From positions 3,224,001 through 3,288,000 of the forward strand of contig NC_088714.1 in NCBI RefSeq assembly GCF_963576615.1: a DNA stretch of 64,000 bases. The letters run 5' to 3'. Source of the stretch: Watersipora subatra (Eukaryota; Bryozoa; Gymnolaemata; Cheilostomatida; Watersiporidae). This document shows, piece after piece, positions 3,856-63,700 of this stretch. A program made the position numbers and the translations under genes. The stretch's first letter is position 1; every line of letters begins with the position of its first letter. The notes beneath the pieces are model-generated. The model saw nothing but the letters and a program-made list of their open reading frames with translations, had not been told where the DNA came from and did not search any database.

Positions 3856-4396
3856 GTTTGTCACGGTACGACTACACTTTGTGTGTAAAAAAAGCCATTG
3901 AAGAATGATTCGTCTGTTAGCTGTGGGAGTGCTTCAAGGGTGATGTGAGGTGTTGTGCAAGGAATTAGCGTCATCACTGACTCTTAGCCTAAAGCATCTG
4001 TTGAGGAGCAGAACCGAAGAGTGCCTTCTAAGCCGAACTTTCTTTTCATTATTCGCTCTATGTTTATACTTTCTTTCGTTTAATATTTTTCATCTTAAGA
4101 TATTGTCAAAATATTAGTAGTATCCAACTGCTCACCTAAAACCAGTGTTGCGAATGCAGCATTAACCTTTTTGTCAGAATTCCAAATTTCACTGCACTAT
4201 TGTTTTGTTTTTGTTGTTTGTTACTGCTACATAAATTATATTTTTATCTAATCACAGGAAGATGATCTTAATCTCTGTAACTGCTTACCTGAGCCTGGTT
4301 TTGCATATGTATTGCAATACTGTATACAATATATTTTGCATGTATGTTTTGCTTAATTGATTTTCAGCTGATACTACCTTGGTGCGCTTGTGAGAT

Positions 4397-4435
4397 CAAT
4401 GATATACAGCTCCCACAGGGAGCTGTATATCATTG
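4397..4435. mobile_element. Micro-palindrome insertion, copy A (39 bp)
   Basis: A perfect palindrome: arms CAATGATATACAGCTCCC and its exact complement, separated by a 3-base loop. It is flanked on both sides by the 7-bp direct repeat GTGAGAT (4390-4396 and 4436-4442). The same ends recur at 56798-56874 and 58134-58175, also with 7-bp flanking repeats. There is no room for coding sequence. I read it as an ultra-short non-autonomous DNA element; the superfamily is unknown. Confidence 0.7.
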
Positions 4436-4979
4436 GTGAGATGAAGAGTTGAAGGAAAGGTATCCACATACAGTATTCAAATGAATATTGCCACCAGCCA
4501 CAATGTTGTTATATCTGTTTAGCAGCAGCACCTAAGGCTTTTACACAGGCATCACAACATATAATTCTTTTAGAAACCCAAACTAGAAACCGGTTGCAAA
4601 CACAAAACCCATCAGAACTTTAGCTATATGCCAATTTAGGTAAGATGTGCTTTAATTTGAGTCTTAAAAGGGTTATATTGTTTTTGAATTAAAAACATTA
4701 TTGGTAGCTTCTTTTAGGGAAATCTGTCTTCTTTCAAATGTTGTATAATATAACAATCAATTTTAGAGTAACTGCCAATATGAGTAATTTTTGTTGGTTA
4801 ATGTTGCGGCCTCTCCATTACCTCTCCGCTATTCATAAAAATAGTGGGCGTGGCTTGTTTGGAAACAGCGAGCTCCATATATGCTTCCGTTGGTCGCAGA
4901 ACTCTGTGAAGCTGTACGGCTTTAGATTTACAATTATATCATTTAGGCGCTTTATTGAAATAACAATTTGGCAAAGCAG

Positions 4980-6024: not shown

Positions 6025-28471
<22,447 letters not shown>

Positions 28472-32273: not shown

Positions 32274-35200
32274 CTATAGTTCAGGATTCCCAAAACCAAC
32301 TTTGTTTTGGAGTTGTCTGATTTCTGTTAACAAGTGCTCATCCTTCATGTTTAGCTGTAAAGTAACAAGGAAACAGCTATTACCCTTCTGAAGCAAAGTT
32401 ATCTAAACACAGTTATGGAATTAGACTTTTTAAGGTTTTGGCTTATCACTCTACAAATCTTTAACTACCGCACGATATAACTGTAAAATTTAAAGCAGAA
32501 GCAAACACGACTAAGCAGCTCTTGAACTGAACAGGCACAAATCTCGTATTCTCTGTTTCTTGTTTCAAGATGTGTATAGAAAGTTAAAGGGTACATTTAT
32601 GCATTAAGAGTAAAGATAAATTTGAATATGGAGAGATAATATGCCCCGAGTTTGAACACACATGTACCTTAAGAGCATATTTGAAGGCTTGCTCAGCCTC
32701 GAGAGCCCTGCCTGTCCGCAAGCAAACCATGGAAAGGTACCCCCAGACCTCCGGGTCCTCATTGTTCAGTATGTTTGCCTCAGACAGAGCATCTTCTGCA
32801 TCCATTAGCTCATCCAGCTACAAAATACAGTAAGTCTAGGTAAATACTTAAGTACTTACCTTCTAGGCAAACATTTGTTACAGTATGCACAGATATGGCC
32901 AGTTAGTTTTGATCTAATGAACATCACTAGTTTGACTGGTAACTTGCGAGGACCACCCAAACAGAATGAACTATGATGTGGCTGACTAGTAACCTAGCCT
33001 GAGTAACCTAGCGATCAATAGAGGAAAGGCTACTTCTACATGCTGAATGCTATTTCTGTTTGTAACTAAACACCAAGAAATGGTGCTAAACTCACCCTGT
33101 AGCAAGCTATGCCAACACCCAACCATGATATGCATGAAGGAGAACTACGACAGGCTTGTAGGAAGGTGTGCTTAGCCTTAGCAAACTCAGCATCTTGCAG
33201 GTATATAGACGCAAGCCGCAGGTAAATTGAGTGTGTTTCCGAGGGGTCAGTGAGAAAGGACAACGTTCTTTCATAACAGTGTTTAGCTTCTGCTATTTCA
33301 TTGGCTAAGTACTTAAGGTGTCCCATCAGCGACCAGGCGTCCGCATTCTAGAAAAACAAACAGCCTGCTTAGAACATAATGCAACACGAAGGTTTCCTAA
33401 TGAGTTCTGTATAAAAGGCTAAAATGGCAGGACATATTTTTGCTTGATTAAAAAAGGAGGGGAGCAAACATTCCCAAATCATTATTGTTGTAGTGAACCT
33501 TTTAAAGTGAGAATAAAGAGTTTTACAGATAATCAGGCCTCTAATTACTATTACATCAACACGTGACTTTTCCAATATACGTGAAACAATTTTAGCAAAT
33601 ATTTGACTTTACAGCCAAAGTACAGTGATTAAACTCTCTGCACACACGCTATACACACACTACACACGTCACGCATTAGCTACACACGCTGCACACTAGT
33701 TACACACACTACATACTTGCTATGCACATACTCCACACTAAGAACACACACGCTACACATACTATACACTATGTACACGCTACACACTAACTACACACTA
33801 GATACAATCAACTCTTTAACCAACCTGGTAGTCCAACTGTAGAGCATCGTTCAATTCTTCCTCAGCATCAGCCAACTCCTTCTTCTGAAGCTTGAGTCTA
33901 GCCATAGCAATGTGGAAGTCTGCTGAAGGGCCTCCCTCATTTGAGGCGTTTAGCAATTGAATTCCTAAAGCTCTCTCAGTGAATGGAATGGCCTTGACCT
34001 CTAGTAGCCACTCGATAGTTTGCATGTATATGCTGAAAGTAAATGATAGTTAGCATGTATAGATAGCGTGGAGCAGCAGCAGATGAGCAGCATAGCCTGA
34101 AGGACTTGATTGACAGCTGTCACTAGCACAGATTTTCACAAGCCTGCCATATACAGAGGGCAAAAGGAGTGATTTTTATTCATAAAATCTATGAAAGGCT
34201 GTCACAGGTGCTGATAATGCACGTAAGCAGATTTTGTTTAATGCAACATACCTTGTCTGTGGCACAGGAGTTGTCTCCCTAGGTATATCAGAAGATGGTA
34301 CTGCGGCAGTCGCTACGGGTGGATCAGGAGAAGGAGAAAGTGGAGACTTTGTCTGGCTAGGGGGTCGCATTGAGTTCAAGGACTCTTGACTCCTTGTCCT
34401 CGTCTCCAGCTGACTGCCACTCGCGCTGCCTGTCAGCCAGCACAATATCTTGTCAACATGACTAACCAGATGACAAAATAGCAGACTGGGAGGAAACAAG
34501 GTCAATGGGTGAAGGTTAACTTAACAACTAAGAAAGTTCCAACACAATAGTGCGATGGGTAGAGAAGTGAAAAGAGTGGAGTTAGGAGTTGCGTACAGTT
34601 ACGAAGAATGAGGAAAGTATACAACAATGCAGAGTAGGTGTAGAGTAGGTGTAGAGTAGGTGTAGAGTACGCGTGTAGTGTATTCGATACCTTTGGTAGG
34701 ATGCTCAGGTATTGTTGGATGCAGTACTGCAAGAGTTTACAAGAGAAGTGAGCAAACACAGTTATCAAGTGCTCCAGTAGCTATGATAATAATACGATTA
34801 ATAATCAAGACTCCACCAGCTCTGGAAATAATAATGTATAGTAAATATATTAATTAATGGCTGAGATTTACTGTATCTATACTCACAGAACACATGTTCT
34901 AGTATATTCTAGAATGCCATCTGATATTCAGGATAACAAATAAAAACATTCAATAAAAGCTGGTATAGCCATTCTTCAGCTGTAAGACAAAGTTGCTGGT
35001 AGTTACCTGCTTTTTTTGAGGTGTGAGTTGCCTTCTTAGCATCTGCCCTGCTATTTCCTCCTCGGCTAGAGCTCGCTAATTTGCTTGATGAAGCACTCTG
35101 ATATCCACCGGCTGCCCATAACAGAACAACACAAGATTAACAACACCTCATATAGTCGATACATAGCAACAATCTATTTTCCCTTACTTGATTTCTACTT

Positions 35201-38200
35201 TTGTCATGTGCAAGTCGACAGTTAGCTCTGCTAACAATAGTAACAAGAAGGTTGTACTAGTGTTTGCAAATTTCTGTCTTGTTGGCTGTTTAACGTCTTT
35301 TGCTAAGAGGAAGATTTTGCACCAGTATGATAAAATAACTCTATCAAACTTTCACAGCTTGTTAATACTTACCCTGGGACAAACTGTTTACAAACTTAAA
35401 GCACAAATAAGCTGAAAAGTGGTTAAAAAAACGATTTTTACATGATATGTAAGTACCTAGCTGCTATATACAAAACAAGACCTGAAAGATGAGAGCATAT
35501 GGCTTCCATATACAAAACAAGAGCTGACAGGTGAACATATGGATCCTATGTACAAAACAAAAGCTGGCAGGTGGGCAAGTGGTTCCTACATACAAGACAT
35601 GAGCTGATAGGCGAGCATGTGACTCCTATATGCAAGATAAGAGCTGAGAGGTAGGCATGTGGCTTTTATATACAATACAAGAGCTGACAGATGAGCATGT
35701 GGCTCCTATATACAGAACAAGAGCTGACAAGTGAGCATTTGACTTTTAAACACAAAACAAGAGCTGACAGGTGAGCATGTGGCTCCTATATACAGAACAA
35801 GAGCTGACAAGTGAGCATTTGGCTTTTATACACAAAACATGAGTTGACAGGTGAGCATGAGGCTTTTATATACACGACATGAGATGACAGGTGAGTATGT
35901 GACTCTTATATACAAGACATGAGCTGACATGTGGGCGTGGGGCTTCCGTATACAAGACATATGATGGTGCATAAGCCTTTGACTCCTTTGCACTTGACAT
36001 GAGACGGCACGCGAGCCTGTGGCTCCCACACAGCAGGTATCAAAACTAGTAGAACTCTGGCTAGTCAGTGATAAAACTGCACAAGATACTATTTAGACCT
36101 TACCATCGACCACAGACTCAGCCTTTTCCTCCAAGGTTTCAGAGTGAACGGTGGCTGGTGGAATGCTTGTGTCCATTGGAGTCGTCTTCATTTGCGACCT
36201 TCGGCATTGCTCTACATTCTTTTTGTTAGCTTCTATATGTGCCATTTCAGCTCCTATATTTATACAATGTAACGTTTTTTCTAATCTCTGTGACATTTGC
36301 AAGTATTTATCATGCAATTCATTGGTGTTTTGTACGTCCTTGACCTACCATGCGGCTAAAAATTTTAAATCTTACACAGCAGACTTATAAGTTTATCAGA
36401 GTCTCAAGTGGTGTATGTTATGCATAGCCTACATGTAAGTATGCTATGCATAACCTACATATGAGTATGTTATGCATAACCTACATGTACGTATGCTATG
36501 CATAACCTACATGTAAGTATGCTATGCATAATCTACATGTAAGTATGCTATGCATAATCTGCATGTAAGTATGTTATACATAACCTAGATGTAAGTATGC
36601 TATGCATAACCTACATGTAAGTATGCTGTGCATAACCTACTTGTAAGTATGTTATGCATAACCTACATGTAAGTATGCTATGCATAACCTACATGTAAGT
36701 ATGTTATGCATAACCTACATGTAAGTATGCTATGCATAACCTACATGTAAGTATGTTATGCATAACGTACATGTGAGTATGTTATGCATAACCTAAATGT
36801 AAGTATGCTATGCATAACCTACATGTAAGTATGCTATGCATAACCTACATGTAAGTATGCTATACATAACCTAGATGTAAGTATGCTATGCATAATCTAC
36901 ATGTAAGTATATTATGCATAACCTAGATGTAAGTATGCTATGCATAATCTACAAGTAAGTATGCTATGTATAACTTACATGTAAGTATGCTATGTATAGC
37001 CTACATGTAAATATGCTATGTATAAACTAAATGTAAATATGCTATTTATAAACTACATGTATATAGGCATGTACAAGCCACATGTAAGTACAAGCGCAAA
37101 CCATTACCTATGTCATTCTCAATGCCATCATAAAACAGACTGAGCATAGTCCAGGCTAGTACACTGTTAGGAGCAACATTTGTAGCAGCTTCAAAGAATG
37201 TCTCAGCAGCTTCAACTCTCTCCTCCATTGCACAGACTACGCCGTACAGCAGCAACCCATTGAGATGACTCTGATTTATCGATATACACTCCTGCAAGCC
37301 GACAAAATATTAGCATCTGGTGATGCCGCGAGCAAGTAATACAATTGATAATAAAGGAATGACAGCGCTAGACAGCAATGATAAGTTTTTCATAATGAAA
37401 AATGATACAAATTGTAAATAAAACAGTTGTACCATCATAACCTGATTATGATGGTACCTGAGCTGCACCTGAGCTGCAGACATACAGCTAAATCTGGTAG
37501 CTAGATGTATGGTTTTATCTTAGAGTACAGCAGCTCTCACTTCTTTGCCAGATTTTGTAAGCAATGTAATTAGAAAGTCACTCATTACAAAACTAATTAA
37601 ACTATGGTGAACTTCTAATTCTATACACAGATTTATTCAGTAGCGTTTATAACACATTTACATGACGGATGCTCCTAGGCAACTCTAATATCCGCATACA
37701 GTGCACCAAATATATCCCTTTGCTATACCTTGAAGCACTCTTCAGCCTTCTCTATGTCATTGATATAGAGATTGAAAGTTCCATAGTCAAACCAGTGCTC
37801 GGCATCCAACCGGTCCCGTGCTATTCGCTGTAAGGTCAAAGGTTAACAACTGACCAGACAAGAGGAGACAAACAACACAAAATATGTTCTTCAAAAAACA
37901 ATTCATTACTCAATGCATTGTTATATACATGTAGGTATTGCGTTATTTTCAACATAAGTGCAATGATTCAACTTTTTCATTTCGTTTCATTGATGTGTTT
38001 GAATACCATCGAATACATAAACATACTTCTCTAGATATCATATCAACTCTGAATCATGTAAGCTCTACTGCACTCAGTTCATCCTCTGACCTCCAACTAT
38101 TCCTCACCTCTTTGTAGTATTTGTCTGCTAGTTCAAAGTCTTCATTGACCTCTGCTTCTCTCGCAAAGTGCTTTAACTGTGTCGAGTCAGTCAAAGGTTT

Positions 38201-41200
38201 AGGAACGGGAGTTTTGTCCTCTAATGAAAGGAAATTGCTAAGGGCCACGTGCATCTGATCCACAAGGTAAACGTAAAGCTCGCTCAGAAATGTCTGCAAA
38301 TAGAGGCTCGATTGTTAATTTCAAAAGGCGTTAAAAAAATCTAAAAGTGGGTTTAATACATAAATCACCAATTTAATACAGGTGGTTGCAGAGATCCACA
38401 AATCATTTAAGAGACTAACATGAACGAGATGTAAATATGGCTATTTTACAGCAGAGTAGTTCATTACAAATCAGTTAATTCATGAGAATTCCCGCAGGAC
38501 ACGCACAGCAGCAACACAGATCAAAATGACATGATAAGCTCACTTGCAGCTGCTGTTGGCTCGCAAAGGTGGTCGTCTGAAGATACTTCTCTCGCACTAT
38601 CTTTATAACAGAGTGTTTGAGTTGCTCTTTGAATGCAAAGTATTTGCCAGATGAGTTGAGTTCATAAAGTAAGGCCTGTCTCTGCTCCTCTTTCGGCCCG
38701 GTTGTCGTCTGCATTGCCTTTCTCAGCTCTTCAAATGTTTCGCTGTCCCTAAATATTATTAAGCAATTTTAACAGACTTTCAACATTATTAACAATACAT
38801 TTAAATATATTGTTTCATGTTGGCAGATTCACCAAACATTATTTGGCTAAACTGGAGTCTGTTGTGAGTTTCTGGGCTTAAACCATCGTACCTGAATTCC
38901 TCAAGGATTAGCTGTGCCACATTCGCCACTTGACTGTGAAAGTCATCGACAGCTTTCTGAGCTCCATTGAGTCTCTTAGGAAAGGCGGGTCTGGGCGGGA
39001 TGTACTCAGCAACTTTTGCCGCCAGCTCCTGCGGAGGTCTTTTTGGTACCTGCAATAAGATGATTGATAGATGTTAGCAGCCCTTTGATGAGCTCAGTAC
39101 ATTACAATGCAAAAAATTACAGGAAAGAAAAACTCTTTTGATACGCTATTAACCATTAAATTGTAAGAGCTTGCTAAAATCTTTGATTTGACAAAAAAGT
39201 AAGCAAAGTGTATTGTATGCTTTAATAGAATATGTAAAGCTTTCTGTAATAGATGCTAACAGTTTCAAAACAGATAAAAGTTTAAAGGAAACGCATTCAT
39301 TTATGAGAACTTTCTGCGTGGTTGTAGTTCCAACTTTTGAAGGAACACGAGAGGAACCACTCCTACTCCTAGACCAATTCCTACTCACCATGGGTCTGGC
39401 GAGTCTTATCTCTAAGCTAAGATAGCTTTTGTGCTCTACATACTGCTGACCCTCGACATTCTGTGGAGCTTCATTCTCACCACCTCCATCAGGGGCTGCT
39501 GCTTTCAACTGAGCCGATGTCTATAATTTAATCCAATCACATTATCTATGAAGGAGATTAAAGCACTTTTCAGAATTAATTTTTACTAGCAGCCCTAAGA
39601 AAGAACAATATACTATTGTATTATAATTATTGTAAAACAACATATTATTGTATCATATACAGGCTCCACATTCTTATAAAGTATACCGCATGTATATAAA
39701 AGCACATCATGTAGAGGTAAAACATAGGTAAGCATAGTTGGGCCACAGATGCTAGAAAAAGGTTTTTGTAGCAGAAGCAGATAAACTCAAAAATGAAGCA
39801 TCGTAGTTACTGAAGCCAAGAAGGTTCGCTGAAGAAGGTCAGACGCTAACAAGCTACAAATACCGTACAACCTCTAATTGAACGCCACCTCTATTTGAAT
39901 GCCACCTCCAATTGACCGCCTCTAGAGAGGAAGGGTTGAAAAATAGAGCGCCATAGCGTTCAATTACAGGTTTTACGGTAGTAGCAATAACAAAGCAACA
40001 AGAAACAAAGAAGGAGCATCAGCCAGCTTTAATGTTGGCTGATGAATATGGGAGTACCGTCAGATTAACATTGTGAATGTTGACATGAGTAGATGTCTAA
40101 AACAGGAAGTGTTGATGAGACAGACACCAAAGAAGAGAGAGAAGAGAGAGGCGGAAATAATAAACCGAGGTACATAGAACACTATTAACATTAATAAAGA
40201 GTTATATAGAAGCTGAGATTCTTTGCTTCTTTGCTGTAGAAGATAATTAAATTATGCAGCTGTTTTGGAAATGTGATAGACTTACAATATCTCTATAATA
40301 AGTTTTTCCAAATGTAATTTGTGCTTCAAAACTATCGAGTAAATAAGCTCAAAAAAATAGTTTGATGGTTTAATAACATAATAAAAAATATTTATAACCC
40401 AATAATGAAAGCTCGTAGAGATTTATCAACTAAAAAGAAGACAAATCCTAGTTGGCTCAACAAAGCAATAACTTGAAGCAATTTGTAACAAAATCAGAGT
40501 TTTACCAAAGCCATGCATATTAGAAATACATAAATTTTTTACAGGTTTACAGGTAGGGAAGCTTAATCTATATTTAATATTTTATCCAGCACAATTTCAG
40601 TATTCAGAGCTAGCAACAGGAAACAGCGCAAAGAAGTGAGAGAAAAAGAGCGGTGAAACTAACATGTGGTGGGTGAGCATGAGGAGTGGCTTTAGCAAGA
40701 TGAGCGAGTGAAGGACTTGCACCTGTCAGAGGTTGGTTCATTCTACTCTAAAAGCAGCAATTGTTTTCCAAACTAGAGTTGGTTGAATGTGCCCTACTAG
40801 GAAAATATTTCTTATCTATGAAACTAAACTCTCAGGCTAAGAATCTATCTGTTAGTATTACCTTATCCATGAAACTAAACTCTCAGACTAAGAATATATC
40901 TGTCAGTATTATTTTATCTTTAAAACTAAACCCTCAAGCTAAGTTCTAACTTTAACTATATCTCACCCTTACAATACTGATATTGCTGATCTAACAAGAA
41001 CAGTTTGGTATAAAGTATGGCTGTAACACAACTGACTAGTATAACAGTTTATATACTAGCATCTACTTATTAGATAAATCAGGAGAAGATAACTCAACTT
41101 GTCTTGTTTACTATCAAATAAATGAGTCATAGATACATGTAAGTGTGTACAGCAAGGTTGACAATGAGGTAATTTTTGAGCATTGCTTACCCCCTTCTTG

Positions 41201-53589: not shown

Positions 53590-56500
53590 GCTCTAGTTTG
53601 ATAGGACATTGTTGTCTTCCCCATTTGCTATCAAAACCGATGATGTAGGGGAAGGTGCTGACATACCTCTGGTTGTTGTCGCAGCTGATGGTGTATGTGG
53701 AGGTGCTGACAAACCGACCATTGATGACGATGCTAGCGCACCTCTGGTTTCTTTCGCAACCAACAATGAAGTTGGTGCTGCCACACCAGTAGCTGACACA
53801 CCGGTAGACATTGGTACTGACACATGCCCGGTTGCTATTACAACTGACGAGTGAAATGGGAACGTAAATTCACTACCCTTTGCAGGTGCTGATACACCTG
53901 GCTCTGGCTCCGTAGTTCCGCTACAATCCTTGTGAAGATCACTTACAGTGTGGTCTAAATATCTGAGCTCGGTTTCTTGGTTTCTCGGTTTTGGTTTCTC
54001 TGAAGAATGATCCATCATTTTTTACTAGAACTTCTCTTCTATTTGTCCCCACAATTGTGGCCATTTGTGGCTTCCTCTTTGCCCCTTCAACAATCTTTAC
54101 TGGTTTGAAGCAAACGCAGGGGCTCCTGTCACGAGCGCGATGGCGACTATTATAGTTGTGTGCCTGGCGAGCTTTGAAGACTGATCTCTACTTGAAAACT
54201 TCTGCTCATCAACAGAACAGTTATTGGAGATGCTATCGAGTTAAGATCACGGTTAAACAAGAGTTAAGCCGAAGAATACTCGGACACTATAGGGTTGTCC
54301 CGGTAATTACACAATGCTGCTTGCAAATTTAAGTTCTTGTTCAATAAACCCTTGACAGTCCGGACGGCCCGTTTTGCCTCTCCATTACTTTGTGGGTACC
54401 TTGGTGCGGATTTGACATGTTCAATATCTCAAAGTCTAAGAAATATCTAGAATTCCTCTCCTTTGAAGTGAGCTGCATTATCAGTTTCCAATATGTGCAG
54501 AATTCCTAGCAAACGTATAACATTGTGCAAAGATTTTTTGCTTCACATGTTTTTACTTTCTCTGTGACAATGTATCAACTGTAGTAATCAACTATCACTA
54601 GGTAACTTTGACCGTCTTTTTCGCACACATTCGCTGCTATCCTCCACCACGGGTGTCCCAGTAGGAGTGTCTGACACAGTGGCTCCTTATGGATTCGTCT
54701 GAACTCAATACATTTTGGGCAGCTTCTTACTCAGTCCCGAATAGCTGTTGTCATTCCTGACCACCACATGACCTCTTTAGCTCGACTTGAGCCTTTGGTC
54801 TCTCCTTGGTGGCTGCGATGTATGTCTTCTACGACCCTTTTTCTCTCTGATGATGGTATGAACACTATCATCTTCGTACACTATACCCTCAAGGGCTGTC
54901 AAGTATTTTTTGTAGCTATAGAATTTTTGTAACTCTGGACACACCTTGTGAAAAGCTGGCCAACCATTGGTGATGTACTGAAGCAGCTCTCTACCCTCTT
55001 TGTCATATAATGTCGACGCCTTCAATCTGGCTAATCTTGCATAAGAAATTGGAAGTGCCTCTACAATCTCATTCATGATGGCATTCTTCTCATCTATTTT
55101 ACGACTCGGCAGGGGTGAGCGCTACAGGGCATCTGCCAAAACCAATTTCTGACCAGGCTTGTATGAAATATCGTAATCGTATGCCATTAGTTCTAGACGG
55201 AAATGCTGAACTCGAATCCGTAGACTGGCTAATTCCTTCTTTCCCAGAATTGAAATGAGTGGTTTGTAGTCGGTGTCGATAGAAAACTTTCTCCCTGCTA
55301 GATTAAAGTCGAACTTTTTACATGCCCAAGCAATTGCGAGCGCTTCTTGCGCTATCTGGTCATATTTGGTCTCAGCGGGAGACATGGTTTTAGACGCGTA
55401 AGCTACAGACACCTTCAACCCTCTGCATTATGACAGCACCAGAGCCATAGGACGAGGCATCAGTGCTTACCATCATTTCTGCCTCCAGCCTATAGGGTGT
55501 GAGGGTGACTGGTGACGCCAGCTTATCCTTCAGTCCTGCAAACTGCTTAGCCTGATCTGCGTCCCAAATTCACTCCTTATACTGCAGAAGCAATTCTTTC
55601 AGGGCATACGTGTCATTTGCTAATGAAGGAGAGAACTTTCCAATATAATTGATAATACTAAAGAATCGCCTCAGTTCGTTTCTGTTCTTTGGCGCCGAGT
55701 AATTTTGTATACCTGCCGTCTTTTCATGGTCTACATTTATTCCATGTTCGTCAATGACATGTCCAAGAAACTTGACACTGGGCTTGCTGAATTCACATTT
55801 GTCTGGGTTCAGCGTAATTCCAGCGGTCTGCAACTTCACCAATACCTTTTTCAGTGTCATGTTCTTCTTTGGTTAGAGCATGCACTAGAATGTTGTACAT
55901 CTGAAAGTTTTTTGCTTCTCCCTTTGAAAAGTTTTGAGGGCTAAAGAGATTCTAAAAGGCAAGCGTTTACAAAAGTATCTACATGTACCAAATGGCATGA
56001 TAAGTGTGGTTACCTTCTGAGACGTAGTATTTAGCTTCATCTGCCAGCACCCGCTGTTTGCATCCATCTTGCTGAAGTGTTTTGCATTCTCTAATTTGCT
56101 GAGTGTCTCTTCCATGATTGGAAGTGGATGGAATTCCTGAAGTACAGATTCGTTCAGTTTTATGGATCTTTCCATTTTTACTTGGGACCACAATACAAAG
56201 TGTGCACCGCACTCTGGGGTTTTCAACTTTTTTAATAACTCCTAGGGCCTCCATTCGCTGTAGTTCCTTAAGCAGTGGCTCTTTTCTTGCTGCAGCTACT
56301 CTTCGTGGTATATCTTGAGCGAACGGTTCAGCATCGTTTTTCAATATAATGTTCAATGACGTTTCCATAGTATTCATTCCGCCAAACAATCTTGGATATC
56401 TTTCGAACCATCCATCAGTGGAGATTTCATCAATAAACTCAAATCATTCGTAATCCTGATATGGCCGGTTTGCCGAGCTAAGGTGTCACCGTAGAGTTAT

Positions 56501-56749
56501 CTCCCCCTAGAGTAATAACTATACGAGCGTTTCCGGTGCCAACAAGGAGCGTTTAAGCCACGCCTCTTTTTTGTGCTAGTCAGTCGTAGTGATTGACTAG
56601 ATCAATAACGTCAGCCATGAGAAGGGTTAAACAAGGATCATGAATTTCCAGTTAAGATAGTAATTAATGCTCATATTAAAGAAATGATGATTATAGTTTA
56701 TTACTCTAATATATGCTTATTATTTAAAGCAATTCAATTCCTACCAGGT

Positions 56750-57310
56750 TCACTAAACATATTATGGAAATGTTTACTTTTTCATATCCATTTCCATCAA
56801 TGATATACAGCCCCCCACAGCCCCATACAGCAATGATATACAGCCAATGATATACAGCCCCATGTATATCATTGTTTCTATAAACATAAATATTTCCATA
56901 ATTTTAGGGAAATGGAAATTTTATTTTAGAAATATGGAAATGTTATTGAAATGGAAATAATATGGAAATGGTATTGAAAAGGAAATAATAGGGAAATGTT
57001 ATAGAAATAGAAATGAATTATGGAAATGATATAGAAACACTATGGAAAAGAAGAAGGGAAATGTTATGGAAATAGAAATAATATGGAATTGAATTATGGA
57101 AATGTTATGGAAATGGAATTAATATGGAAATGAATTATGGAAATTTTATGAAATGGAAATAATATGGAAATAAATTATGGAAATGTTATGGAAATGGAAA
57201 TAATATAGAAATGAAGTAAGGAAATGTTATGGAAATGGAATTAATATGGAAATAAATTATGGAAATTTTATGGAAATGGAAATTGTGACATAAACGTAAT
57301 CCCTGATACC
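56750..57310. repeat. GGAAAT-rich satellite insert in left arm of the foldback transposon
   Basis: Irregular repeats of ATGGAAATGTTATGGAAATG and AATATGGAAATGAATT for about 400 bp (56885-57285). The matching stretch of the right arm (about 58230-58245) lacks it, so it arrived after the transposon. It contains micro-palindrome copy B. Confidence 0.7.
56798..56874. mobile_element. Micro-palindrome insertion, copy B (77 bp, expanded)
   Basis: Begins CAATGATATACAGCCCC and ends ATGTATATCATTG, with two extra internal repeats of CAATGATATACAGC. Flanks are TTTCCAT (56791-56797) and TTTCTAT (56875-56881), a 7-bp direct repeat with one mismatch. Confidence 0.6.
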
Positions 57311-58133
57311 TGCATGACTTGCAAAGGCACTGAATAGATAGTGATAAGTAAATGAGTTAATGCAATCAGTTACTCATAGATAAGATAGATAGTCATACGG
57401 GGGTTGTATTACATTAGTGTGATGGGAAGCTAATTGACTGCCATCAACTATTAGCTGTACTAACCGAGTTGCCCGAGTAATAAAAAGGTCTTTGGACAGA
57501 AAATTTATTTTTATATAACATTTACCATTCTAACTTTTAAACTTCATATAATGAGAAAATATTTTTAAGCAGTTCAAATGAATTAATAGGAAAAAGAAAA
57601 CAACCGTAAAGGTTCTCAAGCTTTTTCAAAAAACTACAACTTTTAAATTTCATATCATGAAAGAAGTGTTTTGAAATAAATTGGGAAAAAAAACTGTAAA
57701 TGTGTTTAAATGTAAAATAATTAGCAAGTAATGGCTAAATATAATCTGCTTAGCTATGATTACAATAAAAAATTATTTAATAAATAAAGTAATAAAAAAG
57801 TCTATTTTATTTTTAAATAATTATAATTTAGTATAATTTATTTTTATCTAACATATAACAACATTTGCCACTCTTTCAAGCTTTTTGCTTGCTTACATCA
57901 AGCAACGATGTCCACTAACTAGTTGACATCTTTGCTTCAAGCTAGTTTATGTATTTGATTGATATGTATTGAAATCTAATATTACATGCAAGGGCTGTTT
58001 GTGGACTGTGGGTCAATGAATCACTCTATCACCATACAATGTTAATACTTTCAGTTGATGGCAGTCGATTAGCTTCCCATCACACTAATGTAATACAACT
58101 CCAGTATGACTATCTATCTTATCTATGAGTAAC

Positions 58134-58175
58134 CAATGATATACAGCCTCCATGTGTGGGGGCTGTCTATCATTG
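58134..58175. mobile_element. Micro-palindrome insertion, copy C (42 bp)
   Basis: CAATGATATACAGCCTCC and GGGGGCTGTCTATCATTG form imperfect arms around six bases. Flanked by a perfect 7-bp direct repeat GAGTAAC (58127-58133, 58176-58182). The opposite arm of the same foldback transposon keeps the uninterrupted site (GTTACTC once, 57369-57375), which shows a clean insertion with 7-bp duplication. Confidence 0.8.
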
Positions 58176-59020
58176 GAGTAACTGATTGCATTAACCCACT
58201 TACTTAACACTATCTATTCAGTGCCTTTGCAAGGCATGTAGGTATTGAATTGCTTTAAATAATAAGCATATATTAGAGTAATAAACTATAATCATCATTT
58301 TTTTAATAGGAGTAATAATTACTATCTTAACTGTGGAAATTCATGATCATTCTCATGGCTGATGTTATCGTTTTGTCAATTACTACAATTGACTAGCACA
58401 AAAAAGGGGCGTGGCCTAAACGCTCCTTGTTGACACCGGAAACGCTCGTGTTGTTGAATGCACAGTTATTACTCTAGGGGGAGATTACTCTATGGGTGTC
58501 ACTAACTCTTCGATAAAGTAGACATTTTCAAAAGTTTTTCTGGATTCATACGTTAGTAGTATCTGGGCAGATCTGCATACAGTAAGCTCTTGATTACCTG
58601 CTGGTATCAGCTTCTTGATTGCCTTCTGAAGTGACACTCCTAACTTTCTAGACCATTTCGCTGTGAGAGCTGTCACAGACACCCCCTTGTCAACTTTAAA
58701 GCATTTTTATGTCATTTGAGCTCAGGTCGCAATACTATGCTTTTCCGGTTTCTTGAATGCTGTTCAGTGTATACCCATAAAACCCATATAGAAAGATTCG
58801 AACCTCAAAAATAAGCCATCGGCAAATTCTGACGCAATGCTCAGCTCTGATACAGCCTCATTTACTGGCTTACCTGCCGGCTTCTGACAGAGTGTAGACC
58901 TTGCCCTATGCCTTCTCTCTCCACATGCTTTGCAGGTTGCGAATTTTTGCCGGGCACTGTCCAAACCTGTGGAATGCCCACATGCATGCTTTGCGTGCAT
59001 GTGGGCCAAAGTAATAATGT

Positions 59021-62284: not shown

Positions 62285-63700
62285 ATTAGTGTACAACAAC
62301 TTAGTTAAGTGCACAAAAGTGCACACCAACTTATCTAAGGCACACAAAAGTGTATACCAACTTAACTGAAGCATGCAATTGTGTACTCAAACTTAACTAA
62401 GGCACACACAAGTGTACACCAACTTAATTAAGGCTAAAAAAATGTAAAAATGCTAACAAACTTAACTACGTCGCACAAAAGTGCACACTAATTTAATAAA
62501 GGCCCACAAAAGTACACCTATTTAATTAAGGCACACAAAAGTGTACATTGACTTAACTTCGGTACACAAAAAGCGTACACCAACTCAACTGCATAAAAAT
62601 GTACACCAACATAATCAATGCAAACAAAAGTATTCAACAACCTAACCAAGGCCCACAAAAGTGCATACCAACTTGAAGGTTGATTTGCAACAGAATTCAC
62701 ATTACAATTATTCAGTATCAAATGATTCACCATATTTTACTCTGCTGTGTTGTAAGTACAAAATATGTAGAAATGTGATTACAAGCTCTTAAAAGCTCAA
62801 AAAGGAACAGTTAATCGCAGCCATCACGAAAACGCCGTAGATTGGAATCCCTTTCCAAAATGGCTCAAATAGGACATAGTTGAACATGATGGCTTCTGTT
62901 TACACTTTCACGCAACCTCATTCATCGAAATATTTTCACAAATATACTTCACGCATTCAATAAAACCACGTCTATTGTTCTTATGCATCTATTTCATCAT
63001 CATTGTAATGCTGTCACTTTGAGAACTGATATCTCAAAACCTACCATAAAAATTCGTTCAATTTTTTAATCTTAGCTCAAAGGAGTGCATATCGTCCTCT
63101 GATAAGCATGATCTAGTCATAATCTGATCATGTGACCCATATTTCCTGCCAAATAGCGCGAACATTTTCTCCAGCGTTTTCTGATCATCACAGGTGACCC
63201 AGCAGGCTCTTCATATTTATCAGAGGATGATATGCACCTCCTAGAGCTAAAGTTGAAAAATTAAACGAATTTTAATGGTAGGTTTTGAAATATCAGTGTT
63301 CAAAGTGACAGCATTACAATGATGATGAAATAGACGTGTAAGGACAATAGACATGATTTTATTGAATGCATGAAGTTTATTTGTGAAAATATTTTGACGA
63401 ATGAGGTTGCATGAAAATGTAAACAGAAGCCATCGTGTTCAACTACGTCCCATTTGAGTCGTTTTGGAAAGGGATTCCAAAATACGGCGTTCTCGTGATG
63501 GCTGCGATTAACTGTTCATTTTTGAGATTTTAAGAACTTTTAACCAAGTTTCCACATACTTTGCACCTACAACACAGCAGAGTAAGACATGGGAACCTTT
63601 TGATACCAAATAACTGTAATATGAATTTTGTTGCAAGTAAACTTTTAACTAAGGCATACAAAAGTGTACACCAATTTATTTAAGGCACATAAAAGTACTT
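62285..63700. repeat. 31-bp minisatellite split by a transposon
   Basis: About 12 copies of a 31-bp unit (AACTAAGGCACACAAAAGTG then TACACCAACTT) at 62285-62672, resuming for about two copies at 63649-63700 after the TTAA foldback element. The target TTAA is part of the unit. Confidence 0.85.
62677..63644. mobile_element. TTAA foldback element, copy 2 (968 bp)
   Basis: Inverted ends AGGTTGATTTGCAAC and AAGTTTACTTGCAAC, flanked by TTGA (62673-62676, a one-base variant of TTAA) and TTAA (63645-63648). Arms of about 450 bp pair along nearly their full length around a short centre near 63150. The right half matches 21240-21714. TTAA targets are used by piggyBac and Kolobok superfamilies; no transposase is present. 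Confidence 0.8.

Follow-up and report, generated by a model that had tools for sequence, protein, structure and literature searches.

The short hairpins in the genome of Watersipora subatra, one of which the earlier note had described as a mobile element of 39 bp, are very probably the excision footprints (donor-site scars) of DNA transposons of the P superfamily, and not a mobile element of that size. Their arms are the tips of a P-superfamily element, which bears out the view that they are transposon-derived palindromes. The proposal that the 39-bp hairpin is itself mobile has to be given up, since the centres differ at independent sites, the arms stop near the cut of the P transposase, and similar hairpins also occur for another P family of this genome. 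Taken together, the constant arms, the private centres, the duplications proper to each site and the limit on the inner side of the arms argue for excision and against an amplified 39-bp master.

In the window, as we call the whole 64-kb stretch of DNA analysed, copy A is a putative excision scar at 4397..4435, a 39-bp hairpin (CAATGATATACAGCTCCC-ACA-GGGAGCTGTATATCATTG) with arms of 18 bp and the loop ACA, placed between a left (4390..4396) and a right (4436..4442) 7-bp target duplication GTGAGAT. The 18-bp palindrome with its 3-base loop between identical heptamers, as first described, is therefore exact at 4390-4442. Both arms carry the same C-to-T variant, which implies either a parent element with variant tips or that one arm was templated by the other. 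Of the two further copies of 39-42 bp with 7-bp repeats that had been claimed, copy C agrees with the description and copy B shares the ends but neither the length nor the exact repeats. Copy C (58134..58175), also a putative excision scar, has 42 bp, arm mismatches at two positions and the target duplication GAGTAAC on its left (58127..58133) and right (58176..58182). A larger inverted repeat has copy C inside one of its arms (58053-58245), and the opposite arm (57306..57449, minus strand) is the same sequence without copy C and without one of the 7-mers, that is, an empty site with a single GAGTAAC (as GTTACTC) at 57369-57375. Copy B (56798..56874) is a scar-like derivative of 77 bp composed of recurring stretches of the transposon tip, with tip sequence at both ends; its left flank TTTCCAT (56791..56797) matches its right flank TTTCTAT (56875..56881) at 6 of 7 positions. 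We read it as a scar with a long templated filler, and its layout recurs at C1:89690. No strand applies to the hairpins, their flanks or the repeat that hosts copies B and C. When the 64-kb window was scanned for hairpins between exact 7-bp repeats, only copies A and C were returned, and none was found in six Markov-model controls; neither Rfam families nor tRNAs were detected in the window.

The window holds several other features, and its genes have an animal-like appearance. Two more hairpins lie at 26802-26965, with a sequence unrelated to copy A and without a direct repeat of at least 4 nt at their flanks, and one of them is nested in 55-nt arms. A large inverted repeat is found at 62730-63592 (382-nt arms, 87% complementary, 99 nt between them), and a tandem array at 10529-13439 contains 65 copies of a 45-bp unit with 96% matches and has long open frames on the minus strand. 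From their translations, we take the exon-like pieces at 18695-23384 (plus strand) to be those of an AAA-type protease gene reading like YME1L, and those at 32587-39520 (minus strand) to belong to a TPR-rich gene, possibly ciliary, for example CFAP70. The broken pol-like fragments at 54780-56443 (minus strand) presumably come, again from translations, from a gypsy-type retrotransposon.

Copies B and C lie within a repeat of about 2 kb with inverted ends (approximate extent ~56482..58502), relatives of which, in the 11 loci compared, give long alignments that are 85-93% identical. Both copies are in part passengers of this repeat, and they are among the scars for which later multiplication within other repeats was observed. 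The entire copy number of the hairpins could in principle be explained in this way, a single hairpin, or a few, having been amplified as passengers within larger repeats. Consistent with this, the gagtaac flank of one repeat, the one that contains copies B and C, borders 15 of the 50 hairpins listed on C1. However, the flanks of 31 among these 50 resemble those of no other site in the set, and nearly all of these 31 have a duplication and a centre of their own. Passenger amplification is true for part of the copies, about a third of the scars being carried in other repeats, and is refuted at the sites sampled because their flanks are private; as an account of the whole copy number we regard it as scarcely credible.

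Genome searches covered an assembly of 783.7 Mb in 239 contigs. The exact tip CAATGATATACAGC occurs 5630 times (2791 + 2839), against 1 + 1 for the control with the reversed pattern, and hairpins with exact arms and a length of 28-58 bp number 1064, with none in the control. The whole-assembly search for the tip followed closely by its complement, which had been proposed as a check, thus found many copies. Hairpins of 59-88 bp with exact arms are only 63. We inspected 23 of these, some over 80 letters only, and they show extended fillers assembled from pieces of the tip, long runs of C, or a pair of hairpins side by side; the element interior AAGGATAG was present in none of these 23, with the same 80-letter limit for some. 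Tips that run on into AAGGATAG, which are intact element ends, number 397 + 387 genome-wide, and about 2700 of the 5630 exact tips lie outside exact hairpins and lack the continuation into AAGGATAG. The hairpin patterns had no match in viral contigs or in the contigs of other genomes, and a blastn search against plasmids gave none either. In the portion of the literature available as text, the letters of the tip matched three times, apparently as primers.

For the hairpins with these tips (family 1), a set of independent sites was obtained from 90 pairings, which fell to 61 when identical flanks were removed and to 39 when similar flanks were removed. The 39 sites comprise 31 of the 50 hairpins listed on C1, seven from single tips, and copy A. 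The compound hairpin L048 was excluded from the counts of centres and lengths (n=38) and included in that of duplications (n=39). At the 38 sites, with unrelated flanks, the arms are constant, the hairpin length is 30-53 bp and there are 36 different centres. The 7-bp duplication is exact at 30 of the 39 sites and 6/7 at 4 more, whereas left flanks paired with the right flanks of other sites gave no exact match and 1% at 6/7. The duplications that the earlier note had asked to be tabulated are thus real, and neither of the outcomes it had named as refuting (few copies, or flanks unmatched at 7 bp) occurred. Five of the 39 sites fall below 6/7, among them L054, with an exact 8-bp repeat, and the compound L048. 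The motif of the duplications, rTnnnAy, is common to hairpins and long copies of the element, with T at position 2 in 28/30 of the hairpins and 20/22 of the long copies, and A at position 6 in the same proportions (28/30 and 20/22).

It could be argued that the hairpin is a minimal MITE of 39-42 bp, with tips of about 18 nt that are recognised and moved by a P transposase. The exact 7-bp duplications, the more than 1000 copies and the sharing of tips with a P element able to act in trans would suit such an element, as would the two centres that each recur at two unrelated sites. The copies of one master would, however, share a centre, and 36 centres were counted at 38 sites in spite of partner tips that, for the single tips retrieved, mostly stay within 0-2 mismatches; no internal sequence common to the hairpins at unrelated sites was found. 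In addition, Drosophila P derivatives are reported, in the part of the source available, to require 138 and 216 bp at their ends (PMC1562414). Recurrent joins and transposed hairpins would both produce such repeated centres, so that rare movement of a scar may occur, but as an explanation of the hairpins in general we consider a minimal MITE very improbable.

Longer elements with the same termini do exist. Several tips have a partner at a distance of about 800 bp, and the copy at C1:71826-72640 has 815 bp, GTGACAC on both sides and terminal repeats of about 75 bp. A DNA search with this form, in which the best 40 of 1424 candidates were scored, gave 39 copies besides the query, 92-96% identical. 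Among 26 long copies examined, both ends were measurable in 24, and the 7-bp duplication is exact in 22/24 and 6/7 in 2/24. The 815-bp form corresponds to the first 75 and the last ~751 bp of an element of 5053 bp, at 91-92% identity. It has the features of a MITE, namely similar non-coding copies, terminal repeats, duplications, and ends shared with the 5053-bp element, and is a deletion derivative of that element, common in the genome. A copy of about 776 bp (L078, C1:3076428-3078841) contains a filler-like stretch within one of its terminal repeats, as might result from the cutting and rejoining of one end while the element stayed in place. Another form, of 67-78 bp, is internally deleted and keeps AAGGATAG or a close variant (L001, L066, L068, L071, L072, L073); it lies in another repeat, at a site resembling gtgtggg, and is a passenger deletion derivative, not a scar.

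The 5053-bp element (C4:50369748-50374800) has exact tips at both ends and the flanks ATCCTAT/ATCCTTT (a 6/7 duplication). It was reached from a transposase locus on C4 (L106) with an exact family-1 tip at its edge, one of three transposase loci fetched (L104, L105, L106). Its 551-aa frame contains the THAP (PF05485), HTH (PF12017) and RNase-H N-terminal (PF21787) domains and the GTP-binding insertion (PF21788), the RNase-H C-terminal domain (PF21789) is encoded in a further frame, and the transposase frames of this copy are interrupted. Against the structure of the P transposase (6p5a), the 551-aa frame gives an alignment with E 3e-12, in which two aligned acidic residues are presumably catalytic. 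A public protein search returned many proteins with the same set of domains. The element thus combines THAP, P-type HTH and RNase-H with a GTP-binding insertion, and the target duplications are of the length expected in the superfamily, 7 bp in 22/24 of the long copies. To judge from these sequences, the family-1 tips belong to a P-superfamily transposon, the source that had been named as a candidate; of the longer elements with the same termini that were to be looked for, one (5053 bp) carries a transposase.

The P-transposase RNase-H N-terminal domain, PF21787, has at least 175 matches in this genome (best 150 of 342 candidates scored), and none was found in 14 control genomes. The 175 places hold many families of P transposase, some with a repeated long open frame (612 aa, 544 aa), and these two are possibly recent families. 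Neither owns the family-1 tips: in the family with the 612-aa frame (L104) the tip is absent and no terminal repeats were found, and in that with the 544-aa frame (L105) the tips differ.

We propose the following origin for the hairpins. A P-type element with the ends CAATGATATACAGCCCC(C)AAGGATAG would insert and duplicate 7 bp of the target, a structure seen in the long copies. Its transposase would then excise it with a long stagger, of about 18 nt between the cut at the element end on one strand and the internal cut on its partner, such that a 3' transposon tail of about 18 nt would stay on each chromosome end; the limits of the scars and the Drosophila P precedent suggest this step. The two tails would be end-joined, probably through short homology or through filler copied from the tails, as in joining of the polymerase-theta type, to leave a duplication, about 18 nt, a junction, about 18 nt and a duplication. 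The scar would be a hairpin of 30-53 bp because the two tails are inverted copies of each other. In agreement with a footprint, a duplication on each side (6/7 or 7/7) with the inner remnant of both ends is found at 34/39 family-1 sites.

The length of the arms bears on the position of the cut. In family 1, of 76 hairpin ends, 75 match the element over no more than 20 nt and the remaining one over 22 nt, so that remnants no longer than the overhang are the rule, whereas the repeat of the element has ~75 bp; about 16-20 nt of each inverted repeat are retained. For 31/76 ends the match extends to 19-22 nt, and since the junction falls in a run of C residues that varies in length and precedes an A, the cut can be placed only to 16-20 nt. 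The sharp limit of 18 nt rests on a second family of P elements. The transposase element L105 (on C2) has terminal repeats CAGAGCCATCGAGTGTAAGAG, unrelated to family 1, and a duplication of 8 bp, also of the length expected in the superfamily. A prediction was set before looking, that hairpins of its first ~17 nt should exist, and the search used arms of 14 nt. We found 27 such hairpins genome-wide and none in the control. Their flanks have exact duplications of 8 bp (18 sites) or 9 bp (2 sites) or match at 7/8 (5 sites), which amounts to 25/27 sites, and mismatched pairs of flanks gave no exact match and 2/702 at 7/8. The retained ends measure 18 nt (25), 17 nt (16), 16 nt (10) and 14 nt (3); all 54 are thus within the 18-nt overhang, and the G at position 19 was reached by none of them. 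Ends of up to 18 nt imply a tail of at least 18 nt, one above the figure reported for Drosophila P. Neither the 18-nt limit nor the hairpins of a second family is predicted by a minimal MITE.

The same limit tells against the view that the hairpins are the long element after extreme internal deletion, whether through gap repair that was interrupted or through replication slippage. Deleted classes do occur in this genome, the 815-bp form and the 67-78-bp passenger form that keeps AAGGATAG, but the endpoints of deletions should spread, whereas no family-2 end (0/54) goes past nucleotide 18 and the family-1 hairpins are concentrated at 28-58 bp (1064 against 63 at 59-88 bp); a smooth distribution of lengths was not seen in the two ranges counted. 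On the concentrated lengths and endpoints we rejected an internal-deletion origin for the hairpins, for which it seems very improbable, and retained it for the 815-bp and 67-78-bp forms.

The junctions of the proposed scars are variable. While 36 of the 38 family-1 centres are distinct, the family-2 joins have an overlap of 1-2 nt in 19/27 cases, are blunt in 2, carry a single extra base in 1 and a longer filler in 5. Fillers of 5 nt or more in family 1 have a mean longest match to the tail of 5.0, against 3.6 when shuffled (0/2000 shuffles; 17 fillers, 33 sites). This test left out L063, L074, L079, L083, copy A and L048, since mutated arms were counted as filler at some of these sites; with them the mean match is 6.2 instead of 5.0. 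In family 2, the fillers of 5 nt or more have a mean longest tail match of 7.6 against 3.7 shuffled (0/1000; 5 fillers). Templated insertion is described, in the available parts of the sources, as a mark of end joining by polymerase theta (PMC2895639; PMC4490562), and by analogy this polymerase may have been the joiner here.

Excision footprints of P are already known from experiments, and what is unusual here is the scale. According to the sections of the literature at hand, the two strand cuts made by the P transposase are offset, one lying at the element end and its counterpart 17 bp into the repeat (PMC7776569), and the junctions left by excision of Drosophila P{wa} begin and end with the target duplication, between which stand up to 17 nt from each P end, separated by short homology or by copied filler (PMC2895639). 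Since the two tails are inverted repeats of one another, a scar of the fly type is a hairpin of ~34 bp plus filler. The P{wa} footprints thus have the anatomy of the Watersipora hairpins; they were made in the laboratory at a single site with an 8-bp duplication (PMC2895639), whereas those described here are inherited, lie at many sites, and have duplications of 7 bp (family 1) and the 18-nt limit (family 2). Galileo of Drosophila, also of the P superfamily, shares the 7-bp duplications, the motif GTANTAC (shaped like rTnnnAy), the THAP domain and a P-type transposase, but has long repetitive inverted repeats and different tips, and footprint hairpins are unmentioned in the available part of its description (PMC4168063). 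The P elements and P-MITEs of Anopheles are alike in their THAP/P transposase and in the short non-autonomous relatives that share ends, and unlike in their 8-bp duplications and in keeping subterminal sequence; the words footprint and palindrome are absent from the part of that report available (PMC1562414). Zebrafish Pdre2/THAP9 is P-type outside insects, with internally deleted copies and demonstrated THAP9 excision, but has 13-bp terminal repeats and 8-bp duplications, with scars in the genome undescribed in the text at hand (PMC10983969). The Tc1 footprints of natural C. elegans isolates are likewise germ-line end-joining scars with templated inserts attributed to polymerase theta; they have mariner ends and come, as far as the accessible text goes, from natural deletions numbering fewer than 10, which did not suffice for a systematic analysis of junctions, against hundreds here (PMC4490562). 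In rice, the accessible part of one report gives 94 excision footprints from genome comparison (PMC4423477). A genome-scale set of P scars was not found in the literature searched, which left subscription journals mostly outside its reach.

A repeat annotator would label these hairpins as a family of mini-transposons, and repair scars are the better reading. Each scar would record the joining, in a germ cell, of one pair of ends whose ancestral sequence is known to the base. As 31 of the 50 listed hairpins are independent, the genome would hold, if these are typical, several hundred natural junctions, in which the germ-line use of short homology, of templated filler and of trimming could be measured without a mutant, and which make it testable whether the stagger of P is 17 or 18 nt outside flies. 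Hundreds of independent inherited junctions at chemically identical breaks, together with scars that outnumber the remaining elements, may mean that P-type breaks in this germ line have commonly been closed by end joining instead of being repaired from the sister chromatid, and that P-bearing assemblies are unread catalogues of repair, a generalisation to which we give even chances. If it is true, such catalogues would be recoverable by looking for hairpins built from the outermost ~18 nt of the terminal repeats, a recipe that worked on the second P family of this genome and may work on the P families of other genomes.
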